Virus record (IMG/VR): IMGVR_UViG_3300032087_006453
Span: 1 to 64,000 of that record
Strand: one strand, 5' to 3'
Length of the DNA stretch: 64,000 bases
Origin: a virus
Shown: positions 5,863-56,595 of the stretch, piece after piece
Layout of the letters: every line of letters starts with the position of its first letter
How positions within the stretch are numbered: the stretch's first letter is position 1
Notes under the pieces: model-generated
The model's input: only the letters and a program-made list of their open reading frames with translations
The model's database searches: none
Told to the model about the DNA's origin: nothing
Program-made: the position numbers and the translations under genes

Positions 5863-5991
5863 TTACCCTGAAATAACCTTGATTAGCAAAAATCCGGCTG
5901 CCAAGACAATCATGCCAGAAACAATGCTGATGTCTCTTACAACTCTAGCGACAGCAAGTGCCAAAACTTTATCCCTATTGCTTTTCTTCAT
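5863..5991 (-). CDS. 42-residue single-pass membrane protein
   Basis: ATG 5991 follows GGAGAGCGAAGA and lies inside the end of thyX (17-base overlap). A basic N-terminus (MKKSNRDK) is followed by a long hydrophobic helix ending IVLAAGFLLIKVISG. A longer in-frame start at 6063 is inside thyX and has no ribosome site. Role unknown. Confidence 0.5.
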   Translation of the reverse strand: MKKSNRDKVLALAVARVVRDISIVSGMIVLAAGFLLIKVISG

Positions 5992-6790
5992 TCTTCGCTC
6001 TCCTATAAGCCCCAACCGCAACAGGCCATAGTCCTTCCGCAATCTCCAGACAAGCCTCGGCAACCTTTTGAATCTCCCATTGCGCCCCTTCGTGCGTGCG
6101 AAGGTCGACGAATTTCAGGAGATTTGATAGGTCGACTGTGCCATAGTACTCGGTGTAAAGGTTCTGTGGCAGAACACCGCGAGCTTGTTCGCGGCAAACG
6201 CCTGCTTCGATGAGACTATCATAGAGCTTCAAGCTTTTCGCATGCCAGTCTCCGATAACCTTGCTCGCATCTCCTCGATGACCGGAAGGTCCATAAGGAA
6301 CCTTAACTACTGGATTCACCAACTCGCCGGCGTTACTTGCCTGACGGTTGCTTTTGTGTTGTGTCCTAAAAGCCTGTGGCTCGTAGAACCTCAGATTCAC
6401 ATCTGTATACCTGCGAGAAATTTCATTATAGGACCAGGTCCTATGGCGATGATGCTGGCTGCGGACAAACAAAGGAACAGTAAACCTAAATGTAGCCAGA
6501 TTATGTTCAAAAGTAGAGGTGTGTCGATGTTCGACCAGGTACTTAATGAGTCTTTTGTCTTTTTCATCTAACGCCTCCTTATGCTTCCCAAAACTGACAC
6601 GAGCACTGTTGACGATAGTAAGATCGCTGCCCATCCACTCCACCAAATCAACTCTGCCAATTCCGTCTCCATAGATCTCAATGCTCCTCATAGAATCGTT
6701 TAAAAAACGCTCTGCTTTGGGCACCGTTGCCCTAATGTTTGGGTCCACAAACCACTCCCTTTTCGTCCTGTATGCGTCTGGATCGCTCAC
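5975..6790 (-). CDS. thyX: FAD-dependent thymidylate synthase ThyX
   Basis: 271 residues. Converts dUMP to dTMP using methylene-tetrahydrofolate, FAD and NADPH. The ThyX signature is present near residue 118 as HRHRTWSYNEISRRY, with RHR for FAD binding and the Ser/Arg for dUMP; ARVSFGK near 65 and EHNLATFRF near 97 are also typical. It is the probable dTMP source, which makes the second, ThyA-fold enzyme at 52001-52879 available for a different job. It is followed by a cysteine-synthase-like gene. Confidence 0.95.
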   Translation of the reverse strand: MSDPDAYRTKREWFVDPNIRATVPKAERFLNDSMRSIEIYGDGIGRVDLVEWMGSDLTIVNSARVSFGKHKEALDEKDKRLIKYLVEHRHTSTFEHNLATFRFTVPLFVRSQHHRHRTWSYNEISRRYTDVNLRFYEPQAFRTQHKSNRQASNAGELVNPVVKVPYGPSGHRGDASKVIGDWHAKSLKLYDSLIEAGVCREQARGVLPQNLYTEYYGTVDLSNLLKFVDLRTHEGAQWEIQKVAEACLEIAEGLWPVAVGAYRRAKNEEKQ

Positions 6791-6798
6791 TTAAACCC

Positions 6799-7677
6799 TC
6801 AAATGCAACTAAGATAACGCTCACCACGATCGCAAAGCATGGTGAAAATAACTCCATCAAATTCATTCTCGCTCGCCCACTTTTCGCAGGCTAACACGTT
6901 TGCACCAGAACTAATGCCAACCAGCATGCCCTTTTGCTTGATGAGTTCCCTGGCTCTCTGCTTTGCAGACTCAGTCGGTATCACAACTATTTCATCAACC
7001 TCTTCGAGATCAACAAGAAACTTGCTTCCGTCACCGATACCTTGGATACCGTGTAGCCCGGGTTCTCCGCCGCTCATCACTGGAGATTCTGCAGGCTCGA
7101 CTGCAATGATCTTTACATCCGGATAGTTCTCACGAAGTTTTGCTGCAACTCCCATGATTGTTCCACCTGTTCCCGTTCCGGATACGAATGCAGCAGGCTT
7201 CGTGTTCATCGACCTGCAAGCTTGGACAATCTCCTCTCCGGTGGTGTGGTAGTGGCACTCGATGTTCAGCGGGTTATTGAACTGATTCGTGTTGTACCAT
7301 CCATTCTCTTCCGCAAGTCGATCCCTTAGTGCAATTGCACCGTCAAAATCACCGGCATCGACCTCGATGAGCTCTGCGCCGAGGGTCGTCATCATCTGTT
7401 TTCGCTCTTCAGACATGTTGCAAGGCATGACAATCTTCATGTCATAACCTCTCTCTGCAGCAAGAAGAGCAAATGCAATCCCCGTGTTTCCTGATGTTGC
7501 CTCAACAAGAGTGTCGCCGGCCTTAATTTGACCAGCGTTCTCTGCAGCGTCGAGGATGTACTTTGCCAGACGATCCTTCACACTTCCAGAGGGACTGTAC
7601 GTTTCAAACTTTCCATAAATGCCTTCTTCAACTTTGAGAAGAGGCGTATTCCCCACGTGATCAGATGGTCTAGACAT
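6799..7677 (-). CDS. Cysteine synthase-like PLP enzyme (CysK/CysM family)
   Basis: 292 residues with start at ATG 7677 after GGAGCTGGA. Fold-type II PLP enzyme with the Schiff-base lysine in PSGSVKDR, the substrate loop EATSGNTG, the phosphate loop GTGTGGT and GISSGAN near the end, as in O-acetylserine or O-phosphoserine sulfhydrylases and cystathionine beta-synthase cores. All key residues are intact, so it should be active. It could supply cysteine during infection, or feed an amino acid derivative to a pathway such as the PLP-containing unit at 29.7-32.7 kb. Phage copies are uncommon. Exact substrate cannot be told from sequence. Confidence 0.9.
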   Translation of the reverse strand: MSRPSDHVGNTPLLKVEEGIYGKFETYSPSGSVKDRLAKYILDAAENAGQIKAGDTLVEATSGNTGIAFALLAAERGYDMKIVMPCNMSEERKQMMTTLGAELIEVDAGDFDGAIALRDRLAEENGWYNTNQFNNPLNIECHYHTTGEEIVQACRSMNTKPAAFVSGTGTGGTIMGVAAKLRENYPDVKIIAVEPAESPVMSGGEPGLHGIQGIGDGSKFLVDLEEVDEIVVIPTESAKQRARELIKQKGMLVGISSGANVLACEKWASENEFDGVIFTMLCDRGERYLSCI

Positions 7678-7736
7678 TCCAGCTCCGCTATGTATTTCAT
7701 TGTACGGCACAGCGCAGCCGCTTTACAGAACCTAAA

Positions 7737-10953: not shown

Positions 10954-12225
10954 TTAGGACACATAGATGGGAAGGAAATCATTTGCACGATTGTGCGAGA
11001 AATTCCTGTCCCTGTTCCATCGGTAGTACTTTCGGCAAACCGTTCGGAAGTACTCTACACTTCCCTCCTGGTCTCCGTGAAGAACGTAAAGCGCCTTGTA
11101 GCTGTTGGAATTTGAGAGATGCTTGATCTTGTCGACCATCCGATATGCAACATCTCGAATCTCTTCGGGAAGCGTGATGAGCATCTTGTCAAGCCTTTCG
11201 TTGACCATGCAATTCATCAGGTACTTGTAGCTGAGCTTGGATTTGACCATCTCACCGATGTAGTTCACGTACTTGAACTTGATTCGCTGAGCATCTTTGC
11301 CTGTGCCGATGCATGCAACCCAACCTTCGTTGTTGTGCACGTCTCGCCTGTTGATCTCATCGATGACTTCGCTAATGGTCATCATCTTGCGTTCCGGCAG
11401 AACAATGCTAGTGTTTCCTACCTCACGAACCTTCATGATGATTCTCTCAAGCACGTCCGAAGGAATCTCGTTGCCTCCTGTGTCGTATGCTGCGAGAAGA
11501 TATACCGACTCCTCGTTGCCATAGTCAACATGCACACGGCTGATGGGGTGGACAAGTTCCACAACAACGGTCATCAGGGAGTAGCCGAACAGCTTACATG
11601 CGTGAGCTGCTGCATCGAAGGACTTTCGATCTAGAAGCCCTAGAGCTGCATCGACATACGGAGTCTCCAGCCTTCCTCGAGTGGTTGCACACAGCTGATC
11701 GTTGTGAATGAAGTACTGGAGCATTGCCCCATCTTCTTTGCGCTGCATCATGACGGGATCTGGACCGGCAACCTTGTGAATGAACTCGGTCTCTGAGCTC
11801 GGCACCTCATCGCGATTGAAGAACTTTCGGAAGCTTCGGGATGCAAGCTTAACCCCAGAGACCTCACCTGGTGTCTCGTAGGAATACACTAGGCCACGCA
11901 TCAGTCTGAGTGAAGTCGTCCAGCCATCGCCGCCTGCAACATCGTGAAGTACGTTGTGAGCCTGAGGAGTGTAGTTGAACAAGACAAGCTTGCGACGTGC
12001 ATCAAGGTCGAAGCTGAAGAGATTGCCTGCCTTTACGCCCCACTTTGGATTGATTCCAAGAATGCTGTTGAGCTCATCGTTCCACTGCTTCTTGAGATGA
12101 CGCCAGCGATTCTTCTTGTCCTCTCGGGTCGTCATCTCGCTGGTAATCCTAGCAACAAGCTTTGGAAACTCGACGTCGAGAAAGATGGACTCTTCCATGG
12201 TTTGATGAGTTCTAAAATTTTTCAT
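10954..12225 (-). CDS. RNA ligase, T4 Rnl1-like
   Basis: 423 residues with start at ATG 12225 after GGAGGG. The nucleotidyltransferase motif I is MQRKEDGAML near residue 163, with the Lys that takes AMP; a motif IIIa-like segment RVHVDYGNEESVYLLAAY follows near 255 and lysines typical of motif V (RIKFKYVNY) near 325. This order fits ATP-dependent RNA ligases of the T4 Rnl1 family, which reseal tRNAs cut by host anticodon nucleases. No polynucleotide kinase partner is seen in this window. It has its own promoter at 12243-12271. The tRNA genes and CCA enzyme nearby support a tRNA repair role. Confidence 0.82.
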   Translation of the reverse strand: MKNFRTHQTMEESIFLDVEFPKLVARITSEMTTREDKKNRWRHLKKQWNDELNSILGINPKWGVKAGNLFSFDLDARRKLVLFNYTPQAHNVLHDVAGGDGWTTSLRLMRGLVYSYETPGEVSGVKLASRSFRKFFNRDEVPSSETEFIHKVAGPDPVMMQRKEDGAMLQYFIHNDQLCATTRGRLETPYVDAALGLLDRKSFDAAAHACKLFGYSLMTVVVELVHPISRVHVDYGNEESVYLLAAYDTGGNEIPSDVLERIIMKVREVGNTSIVLPERKMMTISEVIDEINRRDVHNNEGWVACIGTGKDAQRIKFKYVNYIGEMVKSKLSYKYLMNCMVNERLDKMLITLPEEIRDVAYRMVDKIKHLSNSNSYKALYVLHGDQEGSVEYFRTVCRKYYRWNRDRNFSHNRANDFLPIYVS

Positions 12226-12242
12226 GAATCCCTCCATGCATG

Positions 12243-12271
12243 ATTGTAATTGAGACAGCCTTAGTTTACAT
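12243..12271 (-). promoter_or_regulatory. Recurrent-type promoter for the RNA ligase gene
   Basis: ATGTAA, 17 bases, TACAAT on the minus strand, 18 bases before the ligase start. The TAA in the -35 is the stop codon of the preceding small gene, the same economy as in the cassette copies. Confidence 0.6.
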
Positions 12272-12373
12272 CGAAAGAGCAAGAATCAAAAAGAGGTATA
12301 CCAGCGGTGCCATCAGAATCGCAAACACGGTATCCTTGATCTGATCGCTCTTGGTGTAGTGTTCGTTGTTCAT
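12266..12373 (-). CDS. 35-residue membrane protein
   Basis: ATG 12373 lies 5 bases after GGAGGAAAG and overlaps the previous stop by 4 bases. A charged N-terminal half (NNEHYTKSDQIKD) is followed by one membrane helix (VFAILMAPLVYLFLILALSM). Good ribosome site and coupling make it credible. Function unknown. Confidence 0.6.
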   Translation of the reverse strand: MNNEHYTKSDQIKDTVFAILMAPLVYLFLILALSM

Positions 12374-28716: not shown

Positions 28717-29640
28717 TCAGGATGCAAGGCTTGTCATCTCATTGCCAAAATCATCACGATATTTCATGAGTGCAAGCTCCTTCTTCTTGCACTCTAGAAC
28801 AACGTCGACGTCTAGACCGCAGTTGTCGAAAGGCTCGTAGTACCACTGACTGTGAGACACAGCGGATGCCTTTTCATCTTCGTACTTCTTGCGACTGTTG
28901 GAATGATGGCAAACGGGCCGAACTGTTCCCCACGTGTTGGCAGCCATCTTGATTGCTTCCTCGTAGCCCTGATCCTGAGGTCCTAGACTGAAGTGATGGC
29001 TGTCGAAGACAATCGGGATTCCGGTGCGCTCGAAGATGCCCTTGTACAACATCAGTGTGCTGTAGCAGTTTGGCTTGTCATCGTTTTCAACGGTGAGACG
29101 ACTTAGTACGGCAGGGCTTAGTAGCTGAATGTTCTTGCAGAAACGTTCCATAGCAGCGTCACGGTCGCCATACGCACCGCCGATATGAATGTTGATCTTG
29201 GCTTCACGGGTTCGAGGTGCACCGATGAAGTCCATGATCTTTCCATGAATCTCCAGATCCTTGACAGAGTTGTAAACAACCTTCTCGGTTGGAGAAGCCA
29301 TGCAGTTGAACTGACCGGGATGAAACGACAGTCGATGATTGTGCTCACGAGCATAATCGCCAACCGCCCTTAGCGCTTTCTTGATCTCGTCAACACGAGG
29401 CATGGTCTCGAGATCATACTCGCTTGCCCACGGAAACAGGTTTGAGCTGATGCGAAACACCTTGATGTCGTGTGCTTCGTTCCACTTTAGAATCTCGAGC
29501 AGGTCTCTAGAACTCTGCAGCCCGAGATTTGCCATATGCGCGACGCCCTTTTTCAAGAAAGTGCGTCTGATTGCAGTGCGATTAGCCTTGATGCCTTGAC
29601 CAGTGAGTGTTTCGTTGATGCATGCGTAACCGAGCCTCAT
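28717..29640 (-). CDS. uvsE: UV damage endonuclease UvdE
   Basis: 307 residues from ATG 29640 after GGAGGCAAACAC. The TIM-barrel UvdE family is recognised from MRLGYACINETL at the start, FRISSNLFPWAS near 65, SFHPGQFNCMASP near 100, NIHIGGAYGDRD near 150, LTVENDDKP near 185 and FDSHHFSL near 220 (metal-binding His, Glu, Asp). It nicks 5' of UV lesions, starting repair without the UvrABC system. Own consensus-like promoter at 29648-29695. Confidence 0.93.
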   Translation of the reverse strand: MRLGYACINETLTGQGIKANRTAIRRTFLKKGVAHMANLGLQSSRDLLEILKWNEAHDIKVFRISSNLFPWASEYDLETMPRVDEIKKALRAVGDYAREHNHRLSFHPGQFNCMASPTEKVVYNSVKDLEIHGKIMDFIGAPRTREAKINIHIGGAYGDRDAAMERFCKNIQLLSPAVLSRLTVENDDKPNCYSTLMLYKGIFERTGIPIVFDSHHFSLGPQDQGYEEAIKMAANTWGTVRPVCHHSNSRKKYEDEKASAVSHSQWYYEPFDNCGLDVDVVLECKKKELALMKYRDDFGNEMTSLAS

Positions 29641-29647
29641 GTGTTTG

Positions 29648-29695
29648 CCTCCAAGCATATTAGTATTATAGCATGCCAGCGCCGAATCTACACTA
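29648..29695 (-). promoter_or_regulatory. Recurrent phage promoter cassette, copy 9 (uvdE)
   Basis: GTGTAG, 17 bases ending TGC, TATAAT (29665-29670), then GGAGG. Has the best -10 of the set. Confidence 0.72.
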
Positions 29696-29697
29696 GA

Positions 29698-30588
29698 TCA
29701 AAACAGCAGATCTCGCTTGTCTCCCCAATCTCGGTATGAGTCGGTTCGATCAAATATGGTTGTGTCGGTCAGACCAGGTTCTTTCCCAACATTCCACATC
29801 CAGTGATTCTCTTCCGGTCGATTCTTGGGAATGTACTTCCAAACCTTTGCATCGTAGTTTCCGACCGTAGGGAATGGAGGGAAGTTGTGCTTCTTTTCCA
29901 TTTGAGCAAAAGCTAGAGGATCAGAATCTACGGAAGCAACCCCTAGTTCGCCTGCCTTGAGGTTTCTCGAAACTGCAATTGCGTGATGCTCTGAATCCTG
30001 CCATCCAATCTGCAATGCTCGGCCTAGAACGCCGGTTGAAATGGCAAACCAAACGTGACCAGGATCCCCGTACGCCTCTCGGATGTTTTCGACGACTCGA
30101 ACAGCACAGGCTGTGACAAGCTCATGTCGAAGTCCGAGTGGAATAAATGCAGCACCACGTTCCTCCGCCCACTTCTTTGCGTAGCTGTTAAGGTTTGGCA
30201 TGGCAGCAATTCGAACGAATCGAACCTCTGCACCTCTCTCAATGCAGACCGCCTGATGATGCGAGATCTTCTTGGAGGCCGGCATGAACAGAACAACCTT
30301 CTTGTTGTAACGTCCAGCTGCTTCAACGATAGAAGGTCCTGCCAGACCGAAGCGAGGCTGAACGTATACGATCGTGTCTTCCTTCGTCGAAGCCATCAGC
30401 ATGTCTGCAAATCGGCATTTCGATCCGACCATGTGATCATCGCGAACAACATTTACGCCTTCGTGCCGAGTGACAATCGGAAGTCCGTAAGGATCGATCC
30501 ATCCTTCGGTCATTGCCAACCACTCTTCCTTTGATCGAAGCTGAAGGTCTTTGTTGATTCCATCAAGTACATGCTTATCGTGTGCCAT
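29698..30588 (-). CDS. Fold-II PLP enzyme-like protein
   Basis: 296 residues. MVGSKCRFADMLMAS near 50 mirrors the GNK-x-RK lysine site of ACC deaminase/D-cysteine desulfhydrase enzymes; QPRFGLAGPSIVEAAG takes the place of the SNT/GNH substrate loop, FMPASKKISHHQ follows, and AISTGVLGRALQIGW is the phosphate loop. The C-terminal 50 residues are Trp/Asn-rich and unlike known enzymes. Its ATG overlaps the previous stop (TAATG). It is coupled to two genes of unknown chemistry; a role in making or attaching an amino-acid group to DNA is a hypothesis. Confidence 0.65.
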   Translation of the reverse strand: MAHDKHVLDGINKDLQLRSKEEWLAMTEGWIDPYGLPIVTRHEGVNVVRDDHMVGSKCRFADMLMASTKEDTIVYVQPRFGLAGPSIVEAAGRYNKKVVLFMPASKKISHHQAVCIERGAEVRFVRIAAMPNLNSYAKKWAEERGAAFIPLGLRHELVTACAVRVVENIREAYGDPGHVWFAISTGVLGRALQIGWQDSEHHAIAVSRNLKAGELGVASVDSDPLAFAQMEKKHNFPPFPTVGNYDAKVWKYIPKNRPEENHWMWNVGKEPGLTDTTIFDRTDSYRDWGDKRDLLF

Positions 30589-31674
30589 TTACCACTCCCA
30601 CTTGCTTGTTCCCATCATCCACTTCTGCCGCCCCTTTGGATGGTTTGTAATGGATGAAGTATTCCAAATTGCTGTTCGATCCAAATGCTCGTAAGTCTTC
30701 TGCTTGTTGTCAGGAATGTAGTTCTCAACCCATCGGATGTAGTCACACATGACGTCCTCAAGGTCTCTTGGAGCACCACCTGTATCCCTAACAGCTGCTT
30801 CCATTACGTAGTCATAGTAGAGATCCTTCTTGTATCGACCTAGCTTCTCGGCGAACAGGTCCATAGATTCCTTTGCGTTCTTACCATAATACATGTGCGA
30901 CAAAGGATCTACAAGGTCTGGATAGTAATCTGCAAGATCTGCTGCCGTTGCAGTGAATTGGAAGTGGAATCGCTTCATCCCTCTTTCCTTGTTCCACTCA
31001 CACATGAAGTCAACAACTTCTCGTATGTTAGCTCTGCGATTTTCCAGATCTCGAATCCCGAAGATGAATTCCCAAGTTGCATCGACAAGATCGAGCATGC
31101 ACTCACTGATCCACAGTTTTCCTGGTGTCCTGTATTCAAAGCCAGACTTGTTCAGAGACTCCCATAGATGCTTGCTCGGAAACATTGGTATCTGGTTTCC
31201 GATTGAGGTAAACATCGGAATGTCATCGTTGTGCTTCACCCATTCCGCCATTTCCTCGCACGTCTTTAACTTTGCCAACTCGGGGATGACTGTGTTTCGA
31301 TAGCCATGATCTTCCTCGAAAGATGCTCCGCTTCCCGTGATTCTATGAAACATGAAGATCCATAGCCACTGTCGACATCCGGGCCAATGCTCATGCTGCC
31401 TGTCGTATGATTGGTTACGCTGCTGGTGCTCTTCCGTCCACTTGTAGTACTTTGGTGCGTTACTTCCAAACCAGAGATCCTGCAACATGTTCTGGAATCC
31501 GGCATGCTTTCGCTCAACCGTATCGTAGATCGTTACGTTCTCGATCAAGTCGTCACCACAAGAACCAATGTACGGATTACCGCCAAGGTTCGAGTAGTTC
31601 TGGACGTGCTTTGCCTTCTTGTAGTACTCTAGAAAATCGTAGTAGTACTCATTCAGTCTGATCTTGTCTTCCAT
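30589..31674 (-). CDS. Possible amino acid:DNA transferase-like protein
   Basis: 361 residues from ATG 31674 after GTGGAG, overlapping the previous stop by one base. Mostly helical and Trp/Tyr-rich. WLWIFMFHRITGSGASF followed by EDHGYRNTVIPEL near 125 is the most distinctive block, and RFHFQFTATAADLADYYPDL near 250 is another. From memory this resembles the amino acid:DNA transferase/aGPT-pyrophosphorylase group predicted to build hypermodified pyrimidines in phage DNA. I cannot verify this without a profile search; the fallback is a conserved phage protein of unknown function. Confidence 0.45.
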   Translation of the reverse strand: MEDKIRLNEYYYDFLEYYKKAKHVQNYSNLGGNPYIGSCGDDLIENVTIYDTVERKHAGFQNMLQDLWFGSNAPKYYKWTEEHQQRNQSYDRQHEHWPGCRQWLWIFMFHRITGSGASFEEDHGYRNTVIPELAKLKTCEEMAEWVKHNDDIPMFTSIGNQIPMFPSKHLWESLNKSGFEYRTPGKLWISECMLDLVDATWEFIFGIRDLENRRANIREVVDFMCEWNKERGMKRFHFQFTATAADLADYYPDLVDPLSHMYYGKNAKESMDLFAEKLGRYKKDLYYDYVMEAAVRDTGGAPRDLEDVMCDYIRWVENYIPDNKQKTYEHLDRTAIWNTSSITNHPKGRQKWMMGTSKWEW

Positions 31675-32729
31675 TAAATGCTCCACTTGTAGTGTTCTGG
31701 CGAGATGTGCACCGATTGTGGTCGCTCCATGTACTGAAAGTCCAGCTCGCCTGAATCGTTCTTGAAATGATTTGGCCACTCAATGAATTCGTAATCCGGG
31801 TGATCACAGAGCACCCGGGTGTGTTCGTTGAACTCATTCACAATCGCCGATCGCTGCTCCCAGGTTCCCCAATACGGCTGGCCCTTGTGATAACCAGTTT
31901 TCGGCAGCTTTCGACTAATGTTCTCGATAGGAATTGCAGCAACTACCTCAACCTGCTTGATTCCGTAAAGTGACTTGACTCGTCCAAGCTCATCGAAATA
32001 TCTCCAAACTAGTTCACGCGTGGCTTCAAGGTGAGCTTCGGGTTCGTAGATGCGACAGATGTGGTGACGAATATCGATGTTTCCGAGGTAGGTTCTCAGC
32101 TTCTTGATCCGTGTTTCGTCATGAAACGGCTGAAGCCAGGTGTCGAAACCCTTTACGATTGCGCCGTTCAAAGTTTGCCCGTCGTTTCTTGACAGCGCAG
32201 CTTCCGGATGCCATGCAGAAAGGGAGTGCGAATCTCCAAACACAACAAAGTCTCGGCCAAGATGCTCTTGCCTGATTGTCTTAGCACGACTGCAGACCTC
32301 GTCAATCTTGTCAAAGTCCAAGTTCTTGAACGAATCAGGAACCCAAGGCTTCACACGAGTCTTGAGCAGAGTTCCGTACATCGGGCAATCGATGTCAAGA
32401 GAGAACAGTTCGCCTTCGAACCGCTCAAACATTCGGGCCTTTGCGGCGAGCTTGTCCCACGAAGAAAGCTTTGGATCCTTTCCGTCTGCAACTCTTTGCT
32501 TATTTTCATCCGCAAGTTCTTGAAGCTGCTTCTCAGATGAAAGGAAGTAGTTGATGGACTTTGCCCCGACCTTCCATTCCATGCCGTGCTCTAGGTAAAC
32601 GCGTTCCTCATTCGACCAATCAGAGTTGAAACCAACTTCTGTATCGAGACAATTGGCCCACATCCTGCCCCAACCGGTTCGATGCGAGTAAGCACGGTTT
32701 GCGTGGTTGTTAATCGGACTTATGATCAT
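31674..32729 (-). CDS. SGNH-hydrolase-like protein
   Basis: 351 residues. VVFGDSHSLSAWHPE near 165 looks like block I (GDS) of SGNH/GDSL esterases and SVHISPEHYKW near the C-terminus like the block V His. The catalytic Asp normally three residues before that His is not clear, so activity is unsure. The first 160 residues have no known domain. First gene of a coupled trio with the PLP enzyme and the possible transferase. A weak TATAAT with poor -35 lies 25-50 bases upstream. Confidence 0.55.
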   Translation of the reverse strand: MIISPINNHANRAYSHRTGWGRMWANCLDTEVGFNSDWSNEERVYLEHGMEWKVGAKSINYFLSSEKQLQELADENKQRVADGKDPKLSSWDKLAAKARMFERFEGELFSLDIDCPMYGTLLKTRVKPWVPDSFKNLDFDKIDEVCSRAKTIRQEHLGRDFVVFGDSHSLSAWHPEAALSRNDGQTLNGAIVKGFDTWLQPFHDETRIKKLRTYLGNIDIRHHICRIYEPEAHLEATRELVWRYFDELGRVKSLYGIKQVEVVAAIPIENISRKLPKTGYHKGQPYWGTWEQRSAIVNEFNEHTRVLCDHPDYEFIEWPNHFKNDSGELDFQYMERPQSVHISPEHYKWSI

Positions 32730-33905: not shown

Positions 33906-35273
33906 CTAGGGCATCAAGCCCAAGCCTCTGAGGAATCTTAGAACGTTCTCTTTGCTTCTATCTTCGTAACCGCCACTCTCCGAGTCTAGAAACATCTTCT
34001 CGGCAGTTGCTTTCTGATACCCTTCTTCAGGCTGGCTTCCTGACAGGCTTCGGCGCTTGCGTCGAGCTTCTCCAATAAGGGACCTGTATGCGTCCTCTTC
34101 AGCGGCAGCCATGGCTTTGCCAATAGCCGGCCCCTTCAGACCTTGACCCATAAGTTCCTTCGGATTTGCTGCCGGAGGTGAAGATGCAAACTTCAAAAAT
34201 CCCGATGCAATATTCTCAGGAACTCCCCCATGCCTTGCAAATTCTGAGACTGCCTCAGACGGAGAGCCGATTCTCTTGAACTCCTTCTTTAGCTTTACTG
34301 CAGTGGAAGGTGTGATCTCAGATAGGGACATCAGCATATTCGCGACATCAATTGTCTTACGGTCGTACCTCATCTTGTCAAGAGCTTTCGTGATCTTCTT
34401 TTGATTGTCGTCAACAATCATGAAAGCAAGTTGGACAGGCACGCTGTTTGACGAAACCGCCAGAGAAGGATCGGCATTCAACCCCGCGAGTATCTGAGGA
34501 AGAAGATCTGTTCTCTCGACAAGTTCCATGTAGTACTCTGGACGAACCGCCGACTTGATTCCCTTCGCGAACTCGTCAGTAATTCTTTCAGCAGACATTG
34601 CGGGGTCAGACCAAAGGTCGTTGTCATCCAAGATTGCCTGAAGGGTTTCTTTGTCGAGGGCAGAATCCATCCTTGCTGCGAAGCGAAGTGCCCTAAGGAT
34701 TCTAAGCTTGTCTTCATCAAATCTACGGGCAGGATCTCCTACTGCACGAATTTTCTTCGAGCGCAAATCATCAATGCCCCCGACGTAATCAACAATCTCC
34801 CCTGCATCGATGTCGTAGAACAACGCGTTGACAGTTAGGTCTCGACGTGCTACATCTTGATCGATTGTTGTGAACTCAACGCTGTCAGGCCTTCGACCCT
34901 TTCCGATGTCCTTTCGGAATGTTGCAATCTCGTACTCACTACCTTCAGGAGTCCATGCACGAACAACTCCGAACATCTTTCCTGTGACGTCAAGCTTCAG
35001 GCTTTTGTCCTGAGAAAGAATGTCCATGACTCTTTCAGGCGATGCACCCGTTGTTAGGTCATAGTCTTTCGGCTCCTTGTCCATCAAGACATCGCGGACG
35101 GCACCACCGACAACGTAAAGCTCTTCGCCAGAAGCCTTCATCATCTCATGTATTGCGAGCAAATCCTCTGGCAGGTTCATTCGAAAGGAAACCCGCTGTG
35201 GCTTTGCAGCCTCAGCAAGGATGCTACGAACAAACAAGCGTAGCTCGTTAATCGTCTTCTTGTTCCTCATCAT
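33906..35273 (-). CDS. cca: CCA-adding enzyme / poly(A)-polymerase family with virion leader
   Basis: 455 residues. Class II tRNA nucleotidyltransferase: LYVVGGAVRDVLMDKEPKDYDL near 51 (GG-x-V-R-D and D-x-D metal site), ARRDLTVNALFYD near 140 and RRFDEDKLRILRALRFA near 180. It adds or repairs the CCA end of tRNAs. The N-terminus, INELRLFVRSILAEAAKPQR, is the shared leader with a cut after ILAE, which bacterial CCA enzymes do not have; this suggests the enzyme is packaged. About 60 extra residues at the C-terminus. Six of the phage tRNAs lack an encoded CCA and need it. Confidence 0.92.
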   Translation of the reverse strand: MMRNKKTINELRLFVRSILAEAAKPQRVSFRMNLPEDLLAIHEMMKASGEELYVVGGAVRDVLMDKEPKDYDLTTGASPERVMDILSQDKSLKLDVTGKMFGVVRAWTPEGSEYEIATFRKDIGKGRRPDSVEFTTIDQDVARRDLTVNALFYDIDAGEIVDYVGGIDDLRSKKIRAVGDPARRFDEDKLRILRALRFAARMDSALDKETLQAILDDNDLWSDPAMSAERITDEFAKGIKSAVRPEYYMELVERTDLLPQILAGLNADPSLAVSSNSVPVQLAFMIVDDNQKKITKALDKMRYDRKTIDVANMLMSLSEITPSTAVKLKKEFKRIGSPSEAVSEFARHGGVPENIASGFLKFASSPPAANPKELMGQGLKGPAIGKAMAAAEEDAYRSLIGEARRKRRSLSGSQPEEGYQKATAEKMFLDSESGGYEDRSKENVLRFLRGLGLMP

Positions 35274-38113: not shown

Positions 38114-38155
38114 ATTGTATCACAAGGATGTTGAATTTACACTCAGATTTCTGTT
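38114..38155 (-). promoter_or_regulatory. Recurrent phage promoter cassette, copy 10 (sigma operon)
   Basis: GTGTAA, 17 bases ending TGA, TACAAT. Lies between groEL and the sigma operon, overlapping the groEL stop. The phage sigma may control its own operon this way. Confidence 0.6.
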
Positions 38156-39741
38156 TCGTCAGAAATCATTGCTGCACCAACGGAAAGGAAGTTCACCGAA
38201 ACCGAGACAGCATTCTCGAGTGCTGATGTGGCAACAAGGGTAGGATCGATGATTCCTGACTCCACCATGTTGCAGTACTGCTCGTTTCGAGCATCATAGC
38301 CGTATTCAGCGTTTCTTGAACGTAGAACCTTCTGAATCACGATATCAGGAACTCCACCAGCATTTTCAATGATCTGCCTCAGCGGAGCCGTGCATGCACG
38401 AGAAACAACCTCTGCTCCCACTCGAAAGCTTCCGGAACTGTTCTTGGGAACCTTTAGACCCTTCGATGCCTTTGCCAAAGCTGACCCACCGCCTGGAAGA
38501 ATTCCTGAAACAACCGCGGCGCGTGTTGCGTGTAGTGCATCATCAACACGGTCCTTTCTTTCCTGGAGTTCTATCTGAGTGCTTCCGCCCACTCGAAGAA
38601 CACAGATTCCTGAAGACAGTCGTCTTACTCTACGAAGTAGGACCGCCTTGTGTTCATCTGAAATGCTTGGATCTTCTGTTTGGGACTTTAGTTCAGAAAT
38701 CCTTTCATCAACTTCACTATCGTCAGTACTCGTTCCGATGAAGATACTTCTGCGTCGATGAACGACAACCTTTGAACATGTTCCTAAATCCTCGATCGAA
38801 GCATCCTTTAGATCATCGATGTCCGCAGCTCCAAACACCCGGGTTCCCAAAAGGAATGCAAGGTCATCAAGTGCGTTCACTCTTCCTTGCCCGAACTCCG
38901 GAGATGCAATTGCACAAACCTTCAGAACATTCTTCATCCTGTTCAAAACTAGCATCTGAAGTGCTTCACCTTCAATGCCGTCTGCCACAATTAGAAGTGG
39001 CGAGGAAGATGAGTGAATCTTTTCAAGGATAGGAACGATTTCCTGAAGCGTTTCAATGGTCTTGTTTACAATGAGGATCCTAGGGTTCTCGAGTGTACAC
39101 GTCATCCTCTGCTGATCATCGGCAAAGTAAGGAGACAAATATCCACGATCGATCTCGGTACCATCAATGACCTCTAGAGAACTCTTGAATCCCCTGGCCT
39201 CTTCGACGGTAACGGGTCCATCCGGACCTACCGCCTCGATTGCTTCGACAATGATCTTGGAAATGTCCTCCTCACCGTTGGCGCTGATGAGAGCAACGTT
39301 TGAGATTTGATCGTCGTCGCCAACAGGGGTTGACATGTTCTGAAGGGAATCATTGATCTTCGAATGTGCCCATATCATTCCCCTTTTGAGATCAGCATAA
39401 TCGTAGCCAGCCTCGAGTGCTCGCATTCCCTCATTGCAGAGTGCTTGAGCCAAGACGGTTGCTGTGGTTGTTCCGTCTCCGGCAACTTCCGCAGTTCTCC
39501 CCGCAGCCTCCTTGACAAGCTGAACTCCCAAGTCTGGGTACTGATCTCTTAGGTTCAATGCCTTTGCAACAGTCACGCCGTCCTTTGTCAGAATAGGAGG
39601 ACCGTGATCCTGCTCGATTACAACGTTCCGACCACGAGGACCCATGGTCACTCGTACTGCACCTGCTAGCACGTTAATGCCATCCAGCATCTTTCTTCGT
39701 GCTGAGACATCGAACTCAACGACGCGATCTTGTCTAGACAT
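38143..39741 (-). CDS. groL: GroEL-type chaperonin
   Basis: 532 residues. Equatorial ATP site: RVTMGPRGRNVV, KDGVTVAKAL and VAGDGTTTATVLAQAL; ALHATRAAVVSGILPGGGSAL carries the catalytic Asp region; the C-terminal domain is complete but lacks the GGM tail. Apical domain (GYLSPYFADDQQR, LIVADGIEGEAL) is present. No GroES gene is seen here, as in some jumbo phages whose GroEL works without a co-chaperonin. Probably folds phage structural proteins. Confidence 0.95.
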   Translation of the reverse strand: MSRQDRVVEFDVSARRKMLDGINVLAGAVRVTMGPRGRNVVIEQDHGPPILTKDGVTVAKALNLRDQYPDLGVQLVKEAAGRTAEVAGDGTTTATVLAQALCNEGMRALEAGYDYADLKRGMIWAHSKINDSLQNMSTPVGDDDQISNVALISANGEEDISKIIVEAIEAVGPDGPVTVEEARGFKSSLEVIDGTEIDRGYLSPYFADDQQRMTCTLENPRILIVNKTIETLQEIVPILEKIHSSSSPLLIVADGIEGEALQMLVLNRMKNVLKVCAIASPEFGQGRVNALDDLAFLLGTRVFGAADIDDLKDASIEDLGTCSKVVVHRRRSIFIGTSTDDSEVDERISELKSQTEDPSISDEHKAVLLRRVRRLSSGICVLRVGGSTQIELQERKDRVDDALHATRAAVVSGILPGGGSALAKASKGLKVPKNSSGSFRVGAEVVSRACTAPLRQIIENAGGVPDIVIQKVLRSRNAEYGYDARNEQYCNMVESGIIDPTLVATSALENAVSVSVNFLSVGAAMISDETEI

Positions 39742-51305: not shown

Positions 51306-51742
51306 CAGGAAACTCCTGTACTTCCAAAACCGCCGGTCCCACGTTCAGTAACATTCTCAAACAAGCTTTCTTCGTTTACAACTTCAATGCTGTCATAGAA
51401 AACCGGCAGCAAAAGGAACTGAATAATCTTTTCCCCAGGGGAGATTACAACTTCGTCTTTACTTACATTCATCAGGTTAATATGTATCTCGCCCTGATAG
51501 TCTTCGTCGACTACGGATGCACCAACATGCAAACCTTTCTTAACAGCGACTCCGCTCTTGTTGAACGCAATTAGTGCATGACCCTTTGGAACATCGGCTT
51601 TAATTCCGCTCGGAATGAGACACGATTCTCCAGGACTTAGACGAATATATTCGCGACCCTGAGGAACGTAGAAATCGATTCCCGCACTCTTTTCCGTGCC
51701 TCGGGTTGGTGTCTTTACTTCTCTGACCTTGCTGATTCTCAT
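51305..51742 (-). CDS. dut: dUTPase
   Basis: 145 residues. All five motifs of the trimeric enzyme are visible: AGIDFYVP, PSGIKADVP, GLHVGASVVDEDYQGEI, GEKIIQFLLLP, and RGTGGFGSTG at the C-terminus. It hydrolyses dUTP to dUMP. Overlaps its neighbours by 1-4 bases. Confidence 0.95.
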   Translation of the reverse strand: MRISKVREVKTPTRGTEKSAGIDFYVPQGREYIRLSPGESCLIPSGIKADVPKGHALIAFNKSGVAVKKGLHVGASVVDEDYQGEIHINLMNVSKDEVVISPGEKIIQFLLLPVFYDSIEVVNEESLFENVTERGTGGFGSTGVS

Positions 51743-52008
51743 GACTTTCCCTCAATGTGGTTTTGCCAGGCGCCGAGATACGCAACGGCATCTAGCAGAT
51801 TATCTTCCTTGAAATTGTAAGACTGGCGGCTTAGCTTTAGAGCAACGAGTGCAATGTACATATCATGACTAGTCATTTGCTTTCCGGACATACCCGAAGC
51901 AATCATTGCTGCTCGCTGCATACCCTCGCTAAACGGTCCGTACTCTCGCTCCTTTTCCTCGGAACGTTGGTTGACAATTTCATTTGCCTTTTCTAGAATG
52001 TTAGACAT
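51739..52008 (-). CDS. Small helical protein, MazG/DUF6378-like
   Basis: 89 residues, all-helical, with YGPFSEGMQRAAMIAS and KLSRQSYNFKEDNLLDAVAYLG. The E-D-N-x-x-D-A pattern recalls all-alpha nucleotide pyrophosphohydrolases. It lies between dUTPase and the hydroxymethylase-like gene, the place where a dCTP/dUTP-clearing enzyme would make sense. Function unproven. Confidence 0.6.
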   Translation of the reverse strand: MSNILEKANEIVNQRSEEKEREYGPFSEGMQRAAMIASGMSGKQMTSHDMYIALVALKLSRQSYNFKEDNLLDAVAYLGAWQNHIEGKS

Positions 52009-52879
52009 AGATTAGCTCCATTTTTTCTTCGGTCCAACTGTTAATCTCTTCCTTGGTAAGCTTGTAGTATGGTAGATTCACGTGCATTCGTTGTAGCCCT
52101 TCGAGAGTTAGCGAATCACGAAGCGTGTACTTCACTAGGTCTGGATACGGAACGCTATCGGGATGATTGGCTCCGTAGTTTGCAACAATCTTGTCCATCA
52201 TTGCAAAGTGAGATTCGTAAATGTGGAACGAACCTGCCGAATGATAGTAGTGTCCTAGCTCAATCTTATCTCCGGAAACTCTCGCATTGAGCTCGTTGAG
52301 CATCAGTTGCTGATACATGCAGAACGTAAACACATCATTGCAGAAACCGAAGACTGCATCATTGGACCTCATGTGAACGCCTAGGTGCAGCTTGTTGTCT
52401 CGGATGAAGAAATGAATGTACTGCGTGCAAGGATAATCCTTGTTGTTCTTTCCCTTGTGCTGGTATCCGTTGATGGTAATGCTTGCGCGACGAGTATCAC
52501 GATCCCGAATCAACTCATCACGAACCCACTCCCACTGATTTAGCCCGGTCCTCTCGTTGATGTTTCCGTGAATCCAAACTCCGTAGTTTGACTCAACCCT
52601 GTTTTCTTCATCAGCAATGTCTCGCCAAATCTTTGCAAGCTTACCGATGTTGCTTACATCCGGATTGTGCGACAAATACCACAGCCATTCTGTAACTGCA
52701 TATGAAGGCCGAAACTTTCGGGCAGGAACTTCAATAGAAAGAGCTGTTGGATCTTCGATCATCATTGAGTGCCAAAGGATCTCTCTCTGCTTCGAACCTC
52801 TGGAGTTTACGATCGAACCCTTGCTTAGCAGTTTCAGAGATTCAACAAAAGCTTCGTTTAGATTCTTGTAAGTTTGCAT
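52001..52879 (-). CDS. Deoxynucleotide hydroxymethylase, T4 gp42-like (ThyA fold)
   Basis: 292 residues. ThyA fold: DTRRASITI, catalytic DYPCTQYIHFFIRD and GSFHIYESHF. In thymidylate synthase the segment R-S-x-D-x-x-x-G-x-P-F-N ends in an Asn that recognises dUMP; here it reads MRSNDAVFGFCNDVF, with Asp at that place. T4 dCMP hydroxymethylase has the same MRSND, VFGF and ND arrangement and uses the Asp to recognise cytosine. A second dTMP-forming enzyme is not needed because ThyX is present. Predicted product is 5-hydroxymethyl-dCMP; dUMP hydroxymethylation is the alternative. Confidence 0.8.
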   Translation of the reverse strand: MQTYKNLNEAFVESLKLLSKGSIVNSRGSKQREILWHSMMIEDPTALSIEVPARKFRPSYAVTEWLWYLSHNPDVSNIGKLAKIWRDIADEENRVESNYGVWIHGNINERTGLNQWEWVRDELIRDRDTRRASITINGYQHKGKNNKDYPCTQYIHFFIRDNKLHLGVHMRSNDAVFGFCNDVFTFCMYQQLMLNELNARVSGDKIELGHYYHSAGSFHIYESHFAMMDKIVANYGANHPDSVPYPDLVKYTLRDSLTLEGLQRMHVNLPYYKLTKEEINSWTEEKMELIYV

Positions 52880-52894
52880 GTTCTTCCTTTACTG

Positions 52895-52923
52895 ATTATA
52901 CGTTCGGCTTTTGGCTTTTACAT
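52895..52923 (-). promoter_or_regulatory. Recurrent-type promoter for the hydroxymethylase operon
   Basis: ATGTAA, 17 bases, TATAAT, then AAAGGAAG before the ATG. The -35 contains the TAA stop of the polymerase gene. Confidence 0.6.
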
Positions 52924-55900
52924 GATCTTGAACTTGGACCAGCGGCAAGACTTGCCCCAACCTTCCTGCTCGTTGATGATTGAAACGCAGATGCTGTAAG
53001 GTTGAATCTTGGTCTTTCCATCCCAGCCCCAGCAGTTCATCCATTCATTGTTGCCATCGTTTGAAGTTACTTTCATTCGAAGATAGTTCTTGCCGTTGCG
53101 AGTCCTCTTCTCCTGAACGATAGTGGGAACAAACCAGTACATCCACTCACTGTCCCATTCACCGATTGGCCTTACATCGTTATCTCGAAGTCGCTTGATT
53201 TGCCCTTCGGTAATAATCGTGTCAGGACTCACGTAGCCGAATAGATCGTTCTCATTTGCAATGATCTCACTCTTAGTAAACCCGGGCATGCCTGAGTTTT
53301 CCAAGCTGGCTCGCATGAAGTTGTCATATCCTTCCCATGGATTTCTCTTGAGCGACTTTCTAAGAGAGTTCCAGTTCGGAATCACGGTATCGTACATGTG
53401 CTTGTAAGACTCGAACTCCTTTCCAACAACCCCCATGGATTCAAAAGCACGAACACGAATCAGAGATTCCATGGTCTTCTTGTTGAACTTGGAGTGTCGC
53501 CACTTTCCTTCGTCAGTCCACAGCATAGACTTAACATCATGATAAGGTCGATTCTCCATGATCTCATCGACCGCAGATTCACCAACGCCCTTGCAGGACA
53601 TGAACGATGGCATGAATCTCTTGCCACTGAGAATTGTCCAGCTCTTCTGAGCCTCGTTGATATCAAGGGGAACAATCTTGTAGCCTAGCGCTGCAACCTC
53701 GCTGAAGGCCTTGGCACGCTTGTCAGGATTGCCTTCCATTGACTCAAGGTAAGCACAGAGCCATTCCTCTTCGTAGTAGGTCATGAGCCAAGCGCAGTAG
53801 AACGAATCAATGGCATAGGAAACAGCATGAGACTTGTTGAACGAGTAAGCGGTGAACTTCATGATGTCATCATAGAGATCTTCCGCATCGTGACGGCCCA
53901 TGCCGTTGCCAACGAAGCCGTCAATAATTCTGTTCTTTAGAGCCTTTGCCTTTTTTGCAGCGTCGCCAGAAGATTGCTGAGGCTTCATCATCTTTCGAAC
54001 CGCATTGCATTCTTCAAGTGGAATGCCGGCAACACGGTTAACGATTGCCATAGTCTGTTCCTGGAAGACGATATGACCGAAAGTAGGCGCAAGAATCTCT
54101 TCTAGGATGGGGTGCTTGTAGATGATACTACCGGGATCAGCCTTGGATTGCAGGTACTTTCTATCAATCTTCATCGCAAGTGGACCTGGCCTGTAGATTG
54201 AAGTCAGCGCAGCAATTTCTTCGATTGATTTTGGCTTAGCCTTCTTGAACAGTCGCTGAGCACCGTGATTCGTACACTGGAAGATGCCTGCCCATCTAGC
54301 TTCTGCATAGACGCGATAGACTTCTTGATCGTTGAAGTCGATGACCTCGTTCGCCATGTTGTTATCAAACCATTCGGTAACATCAGAATATGCAGGGTTT
54401 TCAATGCCATGCTTTCTGGTGAGGATTAGCTCAATCGTTCGATCGATCATCCGAAGGGTTTCAAGGCCGAGAAGATCAAACTTAATCCAACCGAAGTGTT
54501 CCAGGTGCTTGTAAGAAGCACCTTCAACCCAAGGTGTTTGCAGCTCACCCTTTGCAAGAATGAGTGGCATCCTCTCCTTGATGTTCTCAGAAACGATGAC
54601 ACCGCCGGCGTGGCGACCTAGGGACTTGTTCTGCTGGAAAAGAACACCAATGGGTTCGATAATCTCCGGATGATCTTGCGCAAGCTTTCGGAAAGATTCT
54701 GAGTACTCAAGTGCCCACTCTAGAGTCGGAGTGATAGGTCCGTTGACTGGAATCTTGTCACGCTTGAGTCCAGACCTAATGTCCTTATCGAGAGGGCCGA
54801 GAGCACGGTTTACCTTTGTGAACTCAATCCCGTAGAAGCGAGAAATGTCTTTGACGAGAGACTTCAGTTGGAACCGGTTGTAGTTAGAGATGGGGACAAT
54901 GTTGTCCTCACCAAACTCACCTCGAAGCAAGCCTAGAAGCTTATCACGGTCACCAACATCGGTATCGATATCAGGATAGTCGGTACGAGTGGGATCCATG
55001 AAGCGTGAGAAAAGAAGACCGTACTTCAGGGGATCGACGTCCGTAATCCCGAGGACGTAGTTTACCAGAGAGCCTGCTCCAGAACCACGACCCGGGCCAA
55101 CTCGCATCTGTGTCTTTGCAAGATCGATGATGGCCTTCGTTGTAAGAAAGTACTCAGAGAACTCCTTGTCAAAAATAACCTGAAGCTCTTCCTTGAGACG
55201 AGAGACATACTCTGGCTTTTGGTGGAGATTCTTCTTGATCAAACCTTCCTTCGACGCTTCTAGCAAAGCATCGTTAGCCGTCTTTCCAGCAGGAATTGTG
55301 TACGATGGAAGCTTCATCGACTTGTCTGGGTGAATGTCGCCAATCACTTCGTGTGCGATGTCATGCGTTCTTTCGATTGCTGCGCAAACAACATCGTCAT
55401 CGTAGAAATCGTAACCTTGCTTTGTAGCGTGGTAAGTTTCCCAAACCTGGTTTGCATTCTTCGGATACAGCTCACACTTCAGATCTTCTCTTGACTGAGG
55501 AAGCTTCGAGGGATCAAAATCCTTGTAGTTAAGCCATCCGAGCTTCTTGTAAAGCTCACGCTCCTTCCAGTGATCCGGATGTGAGTAGTGCGAATCACAA
55601 GTCACGACGAGCTGATCAGAAAGTCCGTTTTGCTTTGCAAATTCAATGATTGCCCTGTTGACAAGGTGCTGAGCTGAAAGATGGTTAAACTGAATCTCGA
55701 GCATCACGTTGTGCCTGCCTACGGCATCGGCAAGCATCTCATATCCGTTGCCAACGGAATTCATCATCCTTTCAAGGAGCGCAGGATTGTCCAGCAGCTT
55801 TGCATTCAAATCGTCGAACTCAACCTTCTGGAGATGTGAAAACGCTTCGTAAGCCAGGGGGCCACCGAGGCACGCAGTGCTCACGAGGAGGTGGTCACCC

Positions 55901-56505
55901 TTGGCCGCTTCCTTTAGCATCCTGTAGTCCACACGAGGAAACCGATAAAATCCCTCTGAGTAACCACGACTAACAAGGCCAAATAGTCTCTCGAGGCCAA
56001 CAGAGGTCTTTGGCAATACAACGAGATGATGCCGCCGCTTGATAGGATCGTAGAACTTACCGGACTTAGTCTCTTCCTCATTCTCAACCGTAAGGCCGGC
56101 TTCCTCGATTGCAATGTCAACGATCTCATCGTCTTCGTCAGTCTGAACCTTCAGCGGAGTTACCAGCTCCTCACGCATGCGACGGAGCTTGGCAAGCGCC
56201 GATGCGTCTCCTCGCTTAGCCGCCCTCTTGATTTCGTAATCAAGGTTCCAAGCCGTGAGATCTGGATGCACATACATCTCACACCCAGGAATGAACTTGA
56301 AGTTTGCGCCCTTCGAGTTTAGCTTCTCGGAATGCAGGTATGCATGAGCAAAACCATTCATGTGACCGTGATCAGTCAACGACCACGCGTCCATTCCATT
56401 CTCTCGAACAAAGTCAATGTGCTCCTGCGGATATCCTAGGCCGTCAAACGTTGAAAAGCCGGAATGCGCATGCAAGCCAACAAACCTAGAAGGAACTTTG
56501 CTCAT
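52918..56505 (-). CDS. dnaE: DNA polymerase III alpha subunit (DnaE-type)
   Basis: 1195 residues from ATG 56505 after GAGAGG. PHP domain: GLHAHSGFSTFDG and DAWSLTDHGH. Polymerase: VGPGRGSGAGSLVNY, the metal Asp pair in YPDIDTDVGDRD near 500, SLGRHAGGVIVS, and EAEDLYDDIMKF-like fingers (FTAYSFNKSHAVSYA). The C-terminal OB-like part is short. No DnaQ exonuclease or beta clamp is visible nearby; the PHP site (HAH, DHGH) looks intact and may proofread. An unusual polymerase for a phage, most use family A or B. Confidence 0.96.
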   Translation of the reverse strand: MSKVPSRFVGLHAHSGFSTFDGLGYPQEHIDFVRENGMDAWSLTDHGHMNGFAHAYLHSEKLNSKGANFKFIPGCEMYVHPDLTAWNLDYEIKRAAKRGDASALAKLRRMREELVTPLKVQTDEDDEIVDIAIEEAGLTVENEEETKSGKFYDPIKRRHHLVVLPKTSVGLERLFGLVSRGYSEGFYRFPRVDYRMLKEAAKGDHLLVSTACLGGPLAYEAFSHLQKVEFDDLNAKLLDNPALLERMMNSVGNGYEMLADAVGRHNVMLEIQFNHLSAQHLVNRAIIEFAKQNGLSDQLVVTCDSHYSHPDHWKERELYKKLGWLNYKDFDPSKLPQSREDLKCELYPKNANQVWETYHATKQGYDFYDDDVVCAAIERTHDIAHEVIGDIHPDKSMKLPSYTIPAGKTANDALLEASKEGLIKKNLHQKPEYVSRLKEELQVIFDKEFSEYFLTTKAIIDLAKTQMRVGPGRGSGAGSLVNYVLGITDVDPLKYGLLFSRFMDPTRTDYPDIDTDVGDRDKLLGLLRGEFGEDNIVPISNYNRFQLKSLVKDISRFYGIEFTKVNRALGPLDKDIRSGLKRDKIPVNGPITPTLEWALEYSESFRKLAQDHPEIIEPIGVLFQQNKSLGRHAGGVIVSENIKERMPLILAKGELQTPWVEGASYKHLEHFGWIKFDLLGLETLRMIDRTIELILTRKHGIENPAYSDVTEWFDNNMANEVIDFNDQEVYRVYAEARWAGIFQCTNHGAQRLFKKAKPKSIEEIAALTSIYRPGPLAMKIDRKYLQSKADPGSIIYKHPILEEILAPTFGHIVFQEQTMAIVNRVAGIPLEECNAVRKMMKPQQSSGDAAKKAKALKNRIIDGFVGNGMGRHDAEDLYDDIMKFTAYSFNKSHAVSYAIDSFYCAWLMTYYEEEWLCAYLESMEGNPDKRAKAFSEVAALGYKIVPLDINEAQKSWTILSGKRFMPSFMSCKGVGESAVDEIMENRPYHDVKSMLWTDEGKWRHSKFNKKTMESLIRVRAFESMGVVGKEFESYKHMYDTVIPNWNSLRKSLKRNPWEGYDNFMRASLENSGMPGFTKSEIIANENDLFGYVSPDTIITEGQIKRLRDNDVRPIGEWDSEWMYWFVPTIVQEKRTRNGKNYLRMKVTSNDGNNEWMNCWGWDGKTKIQPYSICVSIINEQEGWGKSCRWSKFKIM

Positions 56506-56526
56506 ATCGATACCTCTCTTTGGTCC

Positions 56527-56555
56527 ATCATAATAAAATTGCCCGCCTTTTTCAA
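56527..56555 (-). promoter_or_regulatory. Sigma70-like promoter for dnaE
   Basis: TTGAAA, 17 bases, TATGAT on the minus strand, 22 bases before the start codon. Closer to host consensus than the recurrent cassettes. Confidence 0.6.
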
Positions 56556-56595
56556 GACGAGCAACTAGTTTCAAGAACGATTTCAGCAGTCATGA

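Follow-up and report, generated by a model that had tools for sequence, protein, structure and literature searches.

A linked trio of phage genes that probably decorates cytosine in viral DNA

We analysed a stretch of 64,000 nucleotides (the window) from IMG/VR virus record IMGVR_UViG_3300032087_006453, which has 70,003 bases and covers part of a genome. Three consecutive genes on its minus strand encode an SGNH-fold protein with the motif GDSHS, an all-helical protein that we call MID, and a fold-II pyridoxal 5'-phosphate (PLP) enzyme (Table 1). This trio, usually found near a gene for making hydroxymethylcytosine, probably builds a novel decoration on the cytosine of viral DNA. We consider it rather likely that these genes work after replication, as a cassette that hypermodifies 5-hydroxymethylcytosine in the DNA of the phage; the added group would probably derive from an amino acid, by a chemistry that we infer from protein family and fold.

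To our knowledge, amino-acid hypermodifications that start from a hydroxymethylpyrimidine are known on thymine only. If our reading is correct, this type of modification would extend to cytosine, an SGNH-fold enzyme would join the toolkit, and an unidentified base would be predicted in many uncultured phages. The trio was undescribed in the open-licence literature searched.

Linkage and distribution of the three genes

An earlier note, made without database searches, had proposed a DNA hypermodification unit of three genes joined by TAATG or one-base overlaps. The three-gene unit is real, with all open reading frames (ORFs) open on the minus strand. The SGNH and MID genes do overlap in this way (..ATT TAATG GAA..), but those for MID and the PLP enzyme abut without overlap (..TGG TAA / ATG GCA..). 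The quoted sequence blocks were present: FHRITGSGASFEEDHGYRN in MID, FGDSHSLSAW in the SGNH protein, and HMVGSKCRFADM around the lysine of the PLP enzyme.

Viral contigs were scanned with each of the three families. For the PLP enzyme the best 80 of at least 600 matching stretches were taken, and the counts apply to the closest relatives. The full trio was present in 106 loci, 81 of them with distinct MID proteins. Among loci anchored on the PLP gene that had enough flank (3.5 kb on each side), 23/23 held MID and SGNH genes and 22/23 a thymidylate synthase (TS) homologue. When loci were anchored on the SGNH gene instead (n=42), 34 held the full trio and one held MID with PARA, a MID paralogue described below, and no PLP gene in range; five had an HMUDK_hel-like gene instead, and two were of the type seen in phage 25.

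The order SGNH-MID-PLP was seen in relatives of the same phage type and of different types. Its retention in independent contigs, together with the sequences (MID identity 93% to 55%), is far beyond chance. Gene order also varied, as in TS-deaminase-MID-(PARA)-PLP-SGNH and TS-SGNH-PARA-PLP-MID, and in two loci SGNH and MID were fused in a single ORF (L022, cut at its start, and L024). Divergence of the three proteins was correlated (r 0.66 to 0.91, with permutation maxima of at most 0.18); shared phage ancestry also contributes to this correlation.

Genes of nucleotide metabolism accompany the trio in many loci, namely a TS homologue, which adjoins it in many relatives, a deoxycytidine monophosphate (dCMP) deaminase, a dUTPase or a thymidine kinase. 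In L003-L005 the trio lies between a dUTPase, upstream, and a thymidine-kinase-like gene identified by eye. A phage with a T7-type primase-helicase (L007) has a TS homologue, a P-loop kinase, a PRA-PH protein and a ThyX homologue near the trio. A deoxynucleoside kinase (dNK)-like P-loop gene was considered as a constant DNA kinase of the system and rejected: it lies near the TS homologue in L007, L021, L022, L024 and L102, was not found in most other trio phages searched, and may simply encode a deoxynucleoside monophosphate (dNMP) kinase.

A scan of a genome collection for MID returned seven contigs only, mostly from metagenome bins, and MID was undetected in phage isolates (tblastn of 50,697 phage records with MID proteins of three types).

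The three proteins and the hydroxymethylase homologue

The PLP enzyme matched phrog_7093 (E 1.9e-37), the family of gp52 of Pseudomonas phage M6 (E 2.2e-159), and fell under the PALP gathering cut-off. Profile comparison with M6 gp52 by hhalign gave E 1.3e-10. A hidden Markov model (HMM) built from trio enzymes only recovered M6 gp52 (E 3.6e-7) as well as PLP domains from phages of Erythrobacter and Microcystis, and gave no match to the window's own cysteine synthase; similarity of the PLP enzyme to cysteine synthases by HMM was weak. A C-terminal motif, PFP....YD.K.W, is common to the trio enzymes and M6 gp52 in an alignment of which M6 gp52 was part, so that a later search based on this alignment found gp52 by construction. 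By these profile matches the trio PLP enzyme is a member of the M6 gp52 family. In the M6 pathway, gp52 presumably works on a DNA-linked amino acid. The earlier note had assigned the trio enzyme to fold II, which held, and had described its active-site loop as altered; the loop is not degenerate, the Schiff-base lysine (Lys57) being invariant in 98/98 relatives. A tie to DNA modification also shows in Erythrobacter phages, where a PLP homologue is embedded in a ParB-linked DNA methyltransferase ORF; in phage ZS04 (L009:2326-4764) this ORF is of the N6/N4 type, and in Microcystis phage Mae-JY30 the PLP and methyltransferase parts are separate ORFs.

For MID, searches of Pfam, PHROG and NCBIfam yielded nothing meaningful, and a sequence-profile search of the PDB returned nothing. 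Its predicted model (predicted local distance difference test, pLDDT, 87.6) had as its top VIA chain 8z2m (Z 9.4, root-mean-square deviation 4.2, 207 residues aligned, 10% identity), tied with 7ou3, and AGOG, Ogg and TAG glycosylases were among the best fold matches. Two BFVD matches are named amino acid:DNA transferase (AADT) domain proteins, one a close relative whose name was not reproduced by Pfam scans of its own relatives, and the other 14% identical. MID and PARA profiles matched each other at E 1e-5 to 2e-4, PARA and HMUDK_hel at E 0.0026 in one direction and 0.039 in reverse. When MID and PARA were combined into one profile, this matched HMUDK_hel at E 0.008; the best E among unrelated controls was 0.066. 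A C-terminal E-x-x-x-C motif, first noticed in this comparison and not a predefined family criterion, is invariant in MID, PARA and ADDT; in HMUDK_hel the cysteine is invariant and the glutamate 71% conserved. The fold match and this chain of profiles make it likely that MID shares a fold and superfamily with AADT and HMUDK_hel. The earlier note's hypermodification unit, tied to a hydroxymethylase, is well supported by context, fusions and PLP homology, and its suggestion of MID as a transferase by fold and weak profile links only; we infer such a function from the predicted model.

A direct link from MID to either ADDT or HMUDK_hel was considered and rejected, since neither HMM nor hhalign could detect such homology. 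The trio contigs yielded zero ADDT matches at E<=10 (M6 gp51 scores 2.3e-48), and no HMUDK_hel (PF18723) match above the cut-off. The proposed search for a 5-hydroxymethyldeoxyuridine (5-hmdU) DNA kinase, an activity described in PMC6449724, found no HMUDK_hel protein in the window's own 70-kb record.

PARA is a second conserved helical-type paralogue, held by 41 loci between MID and PLP or between SGNH and PLP. It had no meaningful Pfam match and was absent from the window's record and most other records searched; it is a possible activating enzyme.

The model of the SGNH protein (pLDDT 93.4) matched SGNH hydrolase chains at Z 11.8-14.3. Ser167 of block I and His341 of block V are each conserved in 50/50 proteins, and Glu335, Asp166, His168, Asp219, Arg221, His223, Arg273 and Arg293 are also invariant. 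The fold is that of SGNH proteins, but the acid, normally an aspartate three residues before the histidine, is altered. It is homologous to the N-terminal part of Aeromonas phage 44RR ORF233c. In 44RR and 31 the SGNH protein is 795 amino acids long, and in 44RR2.8t, a hydroxymethylcytosine phage that can be cultured (L011:5992-8379), it is fused to a C-terminal HMUDK_hel-like domain (PF18723 E 0.0036, weak) and lies beside an SSF symporter. A relative of this domain, in contig L062, exceeds the PF18723 cut-off. In phage 25 the SGNH gene (ORF225c) adjoins one for UDP-galactopyranose mutase. The SGNH gene tracks hydroxymethylcytosine phages more widely than MID or PLP; we speculate on this basis that its product acts near the hydroxymethyl, or else on a hydroxyl carried by whatever is appended there.

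A further row of genes, at L069:9740-15818, comprises SGNH, myo-inositol-1-phosphate synthase, FkbM methyltransferase, HMUDK_hel-like and C5-cytosine methylase genes downstream of a TS homologue with Asp177, and is a candidate for an inositol-based cytosine modification.

The earlier note's gp42-like enzyme exists: a protein of the thymidylate-synthase family with aspartate at the position of ThyA N177. The same residue occurs in 59/59 TS homologues from the window, trio loci and SGNH-HMUDK_hel loci, and asparagine in 14/14 beside M6-gp55-type genes, as in M6-like hmdU phages; the catalytic cysteine is kept in all those compared. Phages 44RR and 25 provided an internal control, in that their ThyA-like protein has asparagine and their gp42-like protein aspartate. 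The motif FGYRNDWAW of these gp42-like proteins is common to many trio-linked ones. Homologues with Asp177 are reported to be a marker of those phage contigs whose cytosine is modified (PMC8670742). The window also encodes ThyX, a separate source of thymidine monophosphate (dTMP), so that a ThyA-like protein is unnecessary for thymidine. By family, Asp177 and catalytic cysteine, the TS homologue is probably a dCMP hydroxymethylase (gp42). Taken with the internal control, the published association and the presence of ThyX, the Asp177 signature points to 5-hydroxymethylcytosine, rather than 5-hydroxymethyluracil, as the most likely handle.

Proposed pathway and its alternatives

The observed gene linkage, homologies, predicted folds and Asp177 signature suggest the following substrate, order of steps and product. 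A gp42-type enzyme, recognised by its sequence signature, would make 5-hydroxymethyl-dCMP, to be incorporated in place of dCMP. The hydroxyl would be activated, the candidates being SGNH, PARA or a kinase encoded elsewhere. Judged by its fold, MID would join an amine-bearing group to the hydroxymethyl carbon once this is activated; the group is most likely an amino acid. The PLP enzyme, judged by its family, would trim or rearrange that amino acid while it sits on the base, with decarboxylation and beta-elimination as examples. More speculatively, the SGNH protein may form or break an ester at the hydroxymethyl or on what is appended, and may thereby activate the hydroxyl, a task of the DNA kinase in thymine systems. 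We hold only tentatively, and think somewhat doubtful, the more specific proposal of a widespread, so far undescribed class of amino-acid-derived hypermodified cytosine. In it, a divergent transferase resembling AADT would work on 5-hydroxymethylcytosine together with a PLP enzyme of the M6 type, and acylation by SGNH would take the place of the DNA kinase used on thymine.

The nearest known system is that of phage M6, whose pathway to 5-NedU we take to comprise AADT gp51, PLP enzyme gp52, radical SAM protein gp53, HMUDK gp54/gp55 and dUMP hydroxymethylase gp58. Like it, the trio loci combine a hydroxymethylpyrimidine synthase, a helical transferase-type protein and a phrog_7093 PLP enzyme. 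Unlike it, they have a synthase of the cytosine type (Asp177), a constant SGNH-fold protein, a helical protein unrecognised by ADDT and HMUDK_hel HMMs and no linked HMUDK_hel protein; nor was a gene for a radical SAM protein noticed next to the trio. MID's best VIA match, 8z2m, is PaMx11 gp46 (PUGT), a 5-PmdU glycinyltransferase, although MID is only 10% identical to it and without a sequence-profile match. The Aeromonas phages 44RR2.8t (ORF233c) and 25 (ORF225c) share a homologous SGNH protein and encode gp42 and no glucosyltransferases; unlike in the trio phages, neither MID nor a PLP enzyme of the trio type was found in their records.

Known cytosine conjugates differ from the proposed product, being carbamoyl (PMC8670742), carboxymethyl-glycine (PMC12783734) or sugars. 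CmoA/CmoX/CmoY, which makes 5-carboxymethylcytosine-glycine, likewise places an amino acid on phage DNA cytosine, as we propose for the trio, but its carboxymethyl handle comes from Cx-SAM, it uses an ATP-dependent amide ligase, and the trio families are not named there (PMC12783734). The carbamoylation of 5-hydroxymethylcytosine found by MetaGPA also pairs a gp42-type synthase with a second decorating enzyme; that enzyme is a carbamoyltransferase, and neither a PLP enzyme nor an SGNH protein is described (PMC8670742). Gene 42 is present and glucosyltransferases are lacking in Aeromonas phages 44RR, 31 and 25, and it was left open whether Hm-dCMP is otherwise modified in phages of this kind (PMC2993671). 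That all three encode the SGNH protein makes this question testable.

Several findings weigh against a hypermodification cassette. The ADDT (PF18724) and HMUDK_hel models matched 0/44 MID proteins at E<=1, so that the search proposed by the earlier note came out negative, and profile comparison of MID with ADDT was no better than controls. Foldseek alone was weak for MID, below significance in the PDB, and the 8z2m match was tied with that to AGOG glycosylase 7ou3 (Z 9.1). The canonical DxxH aspartate is missing from the SGNH protein, where position 338 is K/Q/R/S/G in 50/50, and Glu335 might stand in for it. No recognised DNA kinase was consistently linked to the trio, and a TS homologue was not found in many large SGNH-anchored contigs, which are fragments. 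The loci, moreover, are the closest relatives by similarity and no random sample.

The same genes could serve a sugar- or polyol-based modification of 5-hydroxymethylcytosine, in which MID would be a helical enzyme, kinase-like or of another sort, with SGNH acylating or deacylating the sugar and the PLP enzyme making an amino-sugar or amine donor. The SGNH gene does lie beside UDP-galactopyranose mutase (phage 25), myo-inositol-1-phosphate synthase (L069-type) and the SSF symporter (44RR), and some trio loci include a sugar epimerase (L005) and a weak glycosyltransferase match (L043). Most trio loci nevertheless lack a sugar gene, no glycosyltransferase is constant and the PLP enzyme groups with M6 gp52, so that we regard this route as unlikely. 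A modification of the nucleotide before replication (5-hm-dCMP or its triphosphate), with the polymerase incorporating the finished base, would suit the neighbouring nucleotide-metabolism genes. The ADDT, HMUDK_hel and M6 gp52 families, however, act post-replicatively on DNA in thymine systems, and MID's fold matches are DNA-acting enzymes; this order of events seems improbable to us.

Auxiliary metabolism, with a PLP enzyme that synthesises or breaks down a free amino acid and with neighbours that are unrelated passengers, draws on the PALP family similarity, the weak HMM likeness to cysteine synthases and the true cysteine synthase of the phage. It conflicts with the constant three-gene linkage, the fusions, the linked hydroxymethylase, the correlated divergence and the failure of the trio HMM to match the cysteine synthase, and we give it still less credence. 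Lastly, the glycosylases among MID's best fold matches would agree with a helix-hairpin-helix base-excision or modification-sensing enzyme in a repair or restriction-like unit; modification accords better with the co-occurrence of a hydroxymethylase and a PLP enzyme of the M6 type, and we consider a repair role very improbable.

Other genes of the record

Table 1. Positions of the trio and of other features (window positions unless a contig is named).
Feature	Position	Strand	Basis
SGNH-fold protein, 351 amino acids, GDSHS; first gene of the trio	31674..32729	-	SGNH fold; homology to 44RR ORF233c
MID, all-helical, AADT/HMUDK_hel-superfamily-like, 361 amino acids	30589..31674	-	predicted fold; ExxxC motif; SGNH-MID fusions
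Fold-II PLP enzyme, M6 gp52/phrog_7093 family, 296 amino acids, Lys57	29698..30588	-	profile matches
dCMP-hydroxymethylase-like TS homologue, Asp at ThyA N177	52001..52879	-	PF00303 E 1.7e-19; residue test
DUF6378 protein, beside SGNH in many related loci	51739..52008	-	PF19905 E 1.9e-10
dUTPase, upstream of the trio in L003-L005	51305..51742	-	PF00692 E 2.5e-24
ThyX	5975..6790	-	PF02511 E 2.5e-47
PARA examples	L111:2963-4009; L055:12369-13508; L177:5377-6264		
Cysteine synthase, beside ThyX	6799-7710	-	PALP E 9e-71
UvdE-type UV endonuclease	28717-29658	-	
HhH-GPD glycosylase-like small protein, 143 amino acids	57075-57506	-	
532-amino-acid ORF	38143-39741	-	start resembles GroEL chaperonin, by eye
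Bacterial-type DNA polymerase III alpha with PHP domain	52918-56574	-	
Class-II-like ribonucleotide reductase	58699-60597	-	
CCA tRNA nucleotidyltransferase	33906-35273	-	
T4-type RNA ligase	10954-12282	-	

An Rfam scan of 28-34 kb returned nothing, and no further modification gene was recognised in the last 6 kb of the record. The true cysteine synthase is an unusual metabolic gene for a phage and possibly supplies the modification pathway. The UvdE-type endonuclease gene lies directly downstream of the trio. The same phage carries nine tRNA genes.

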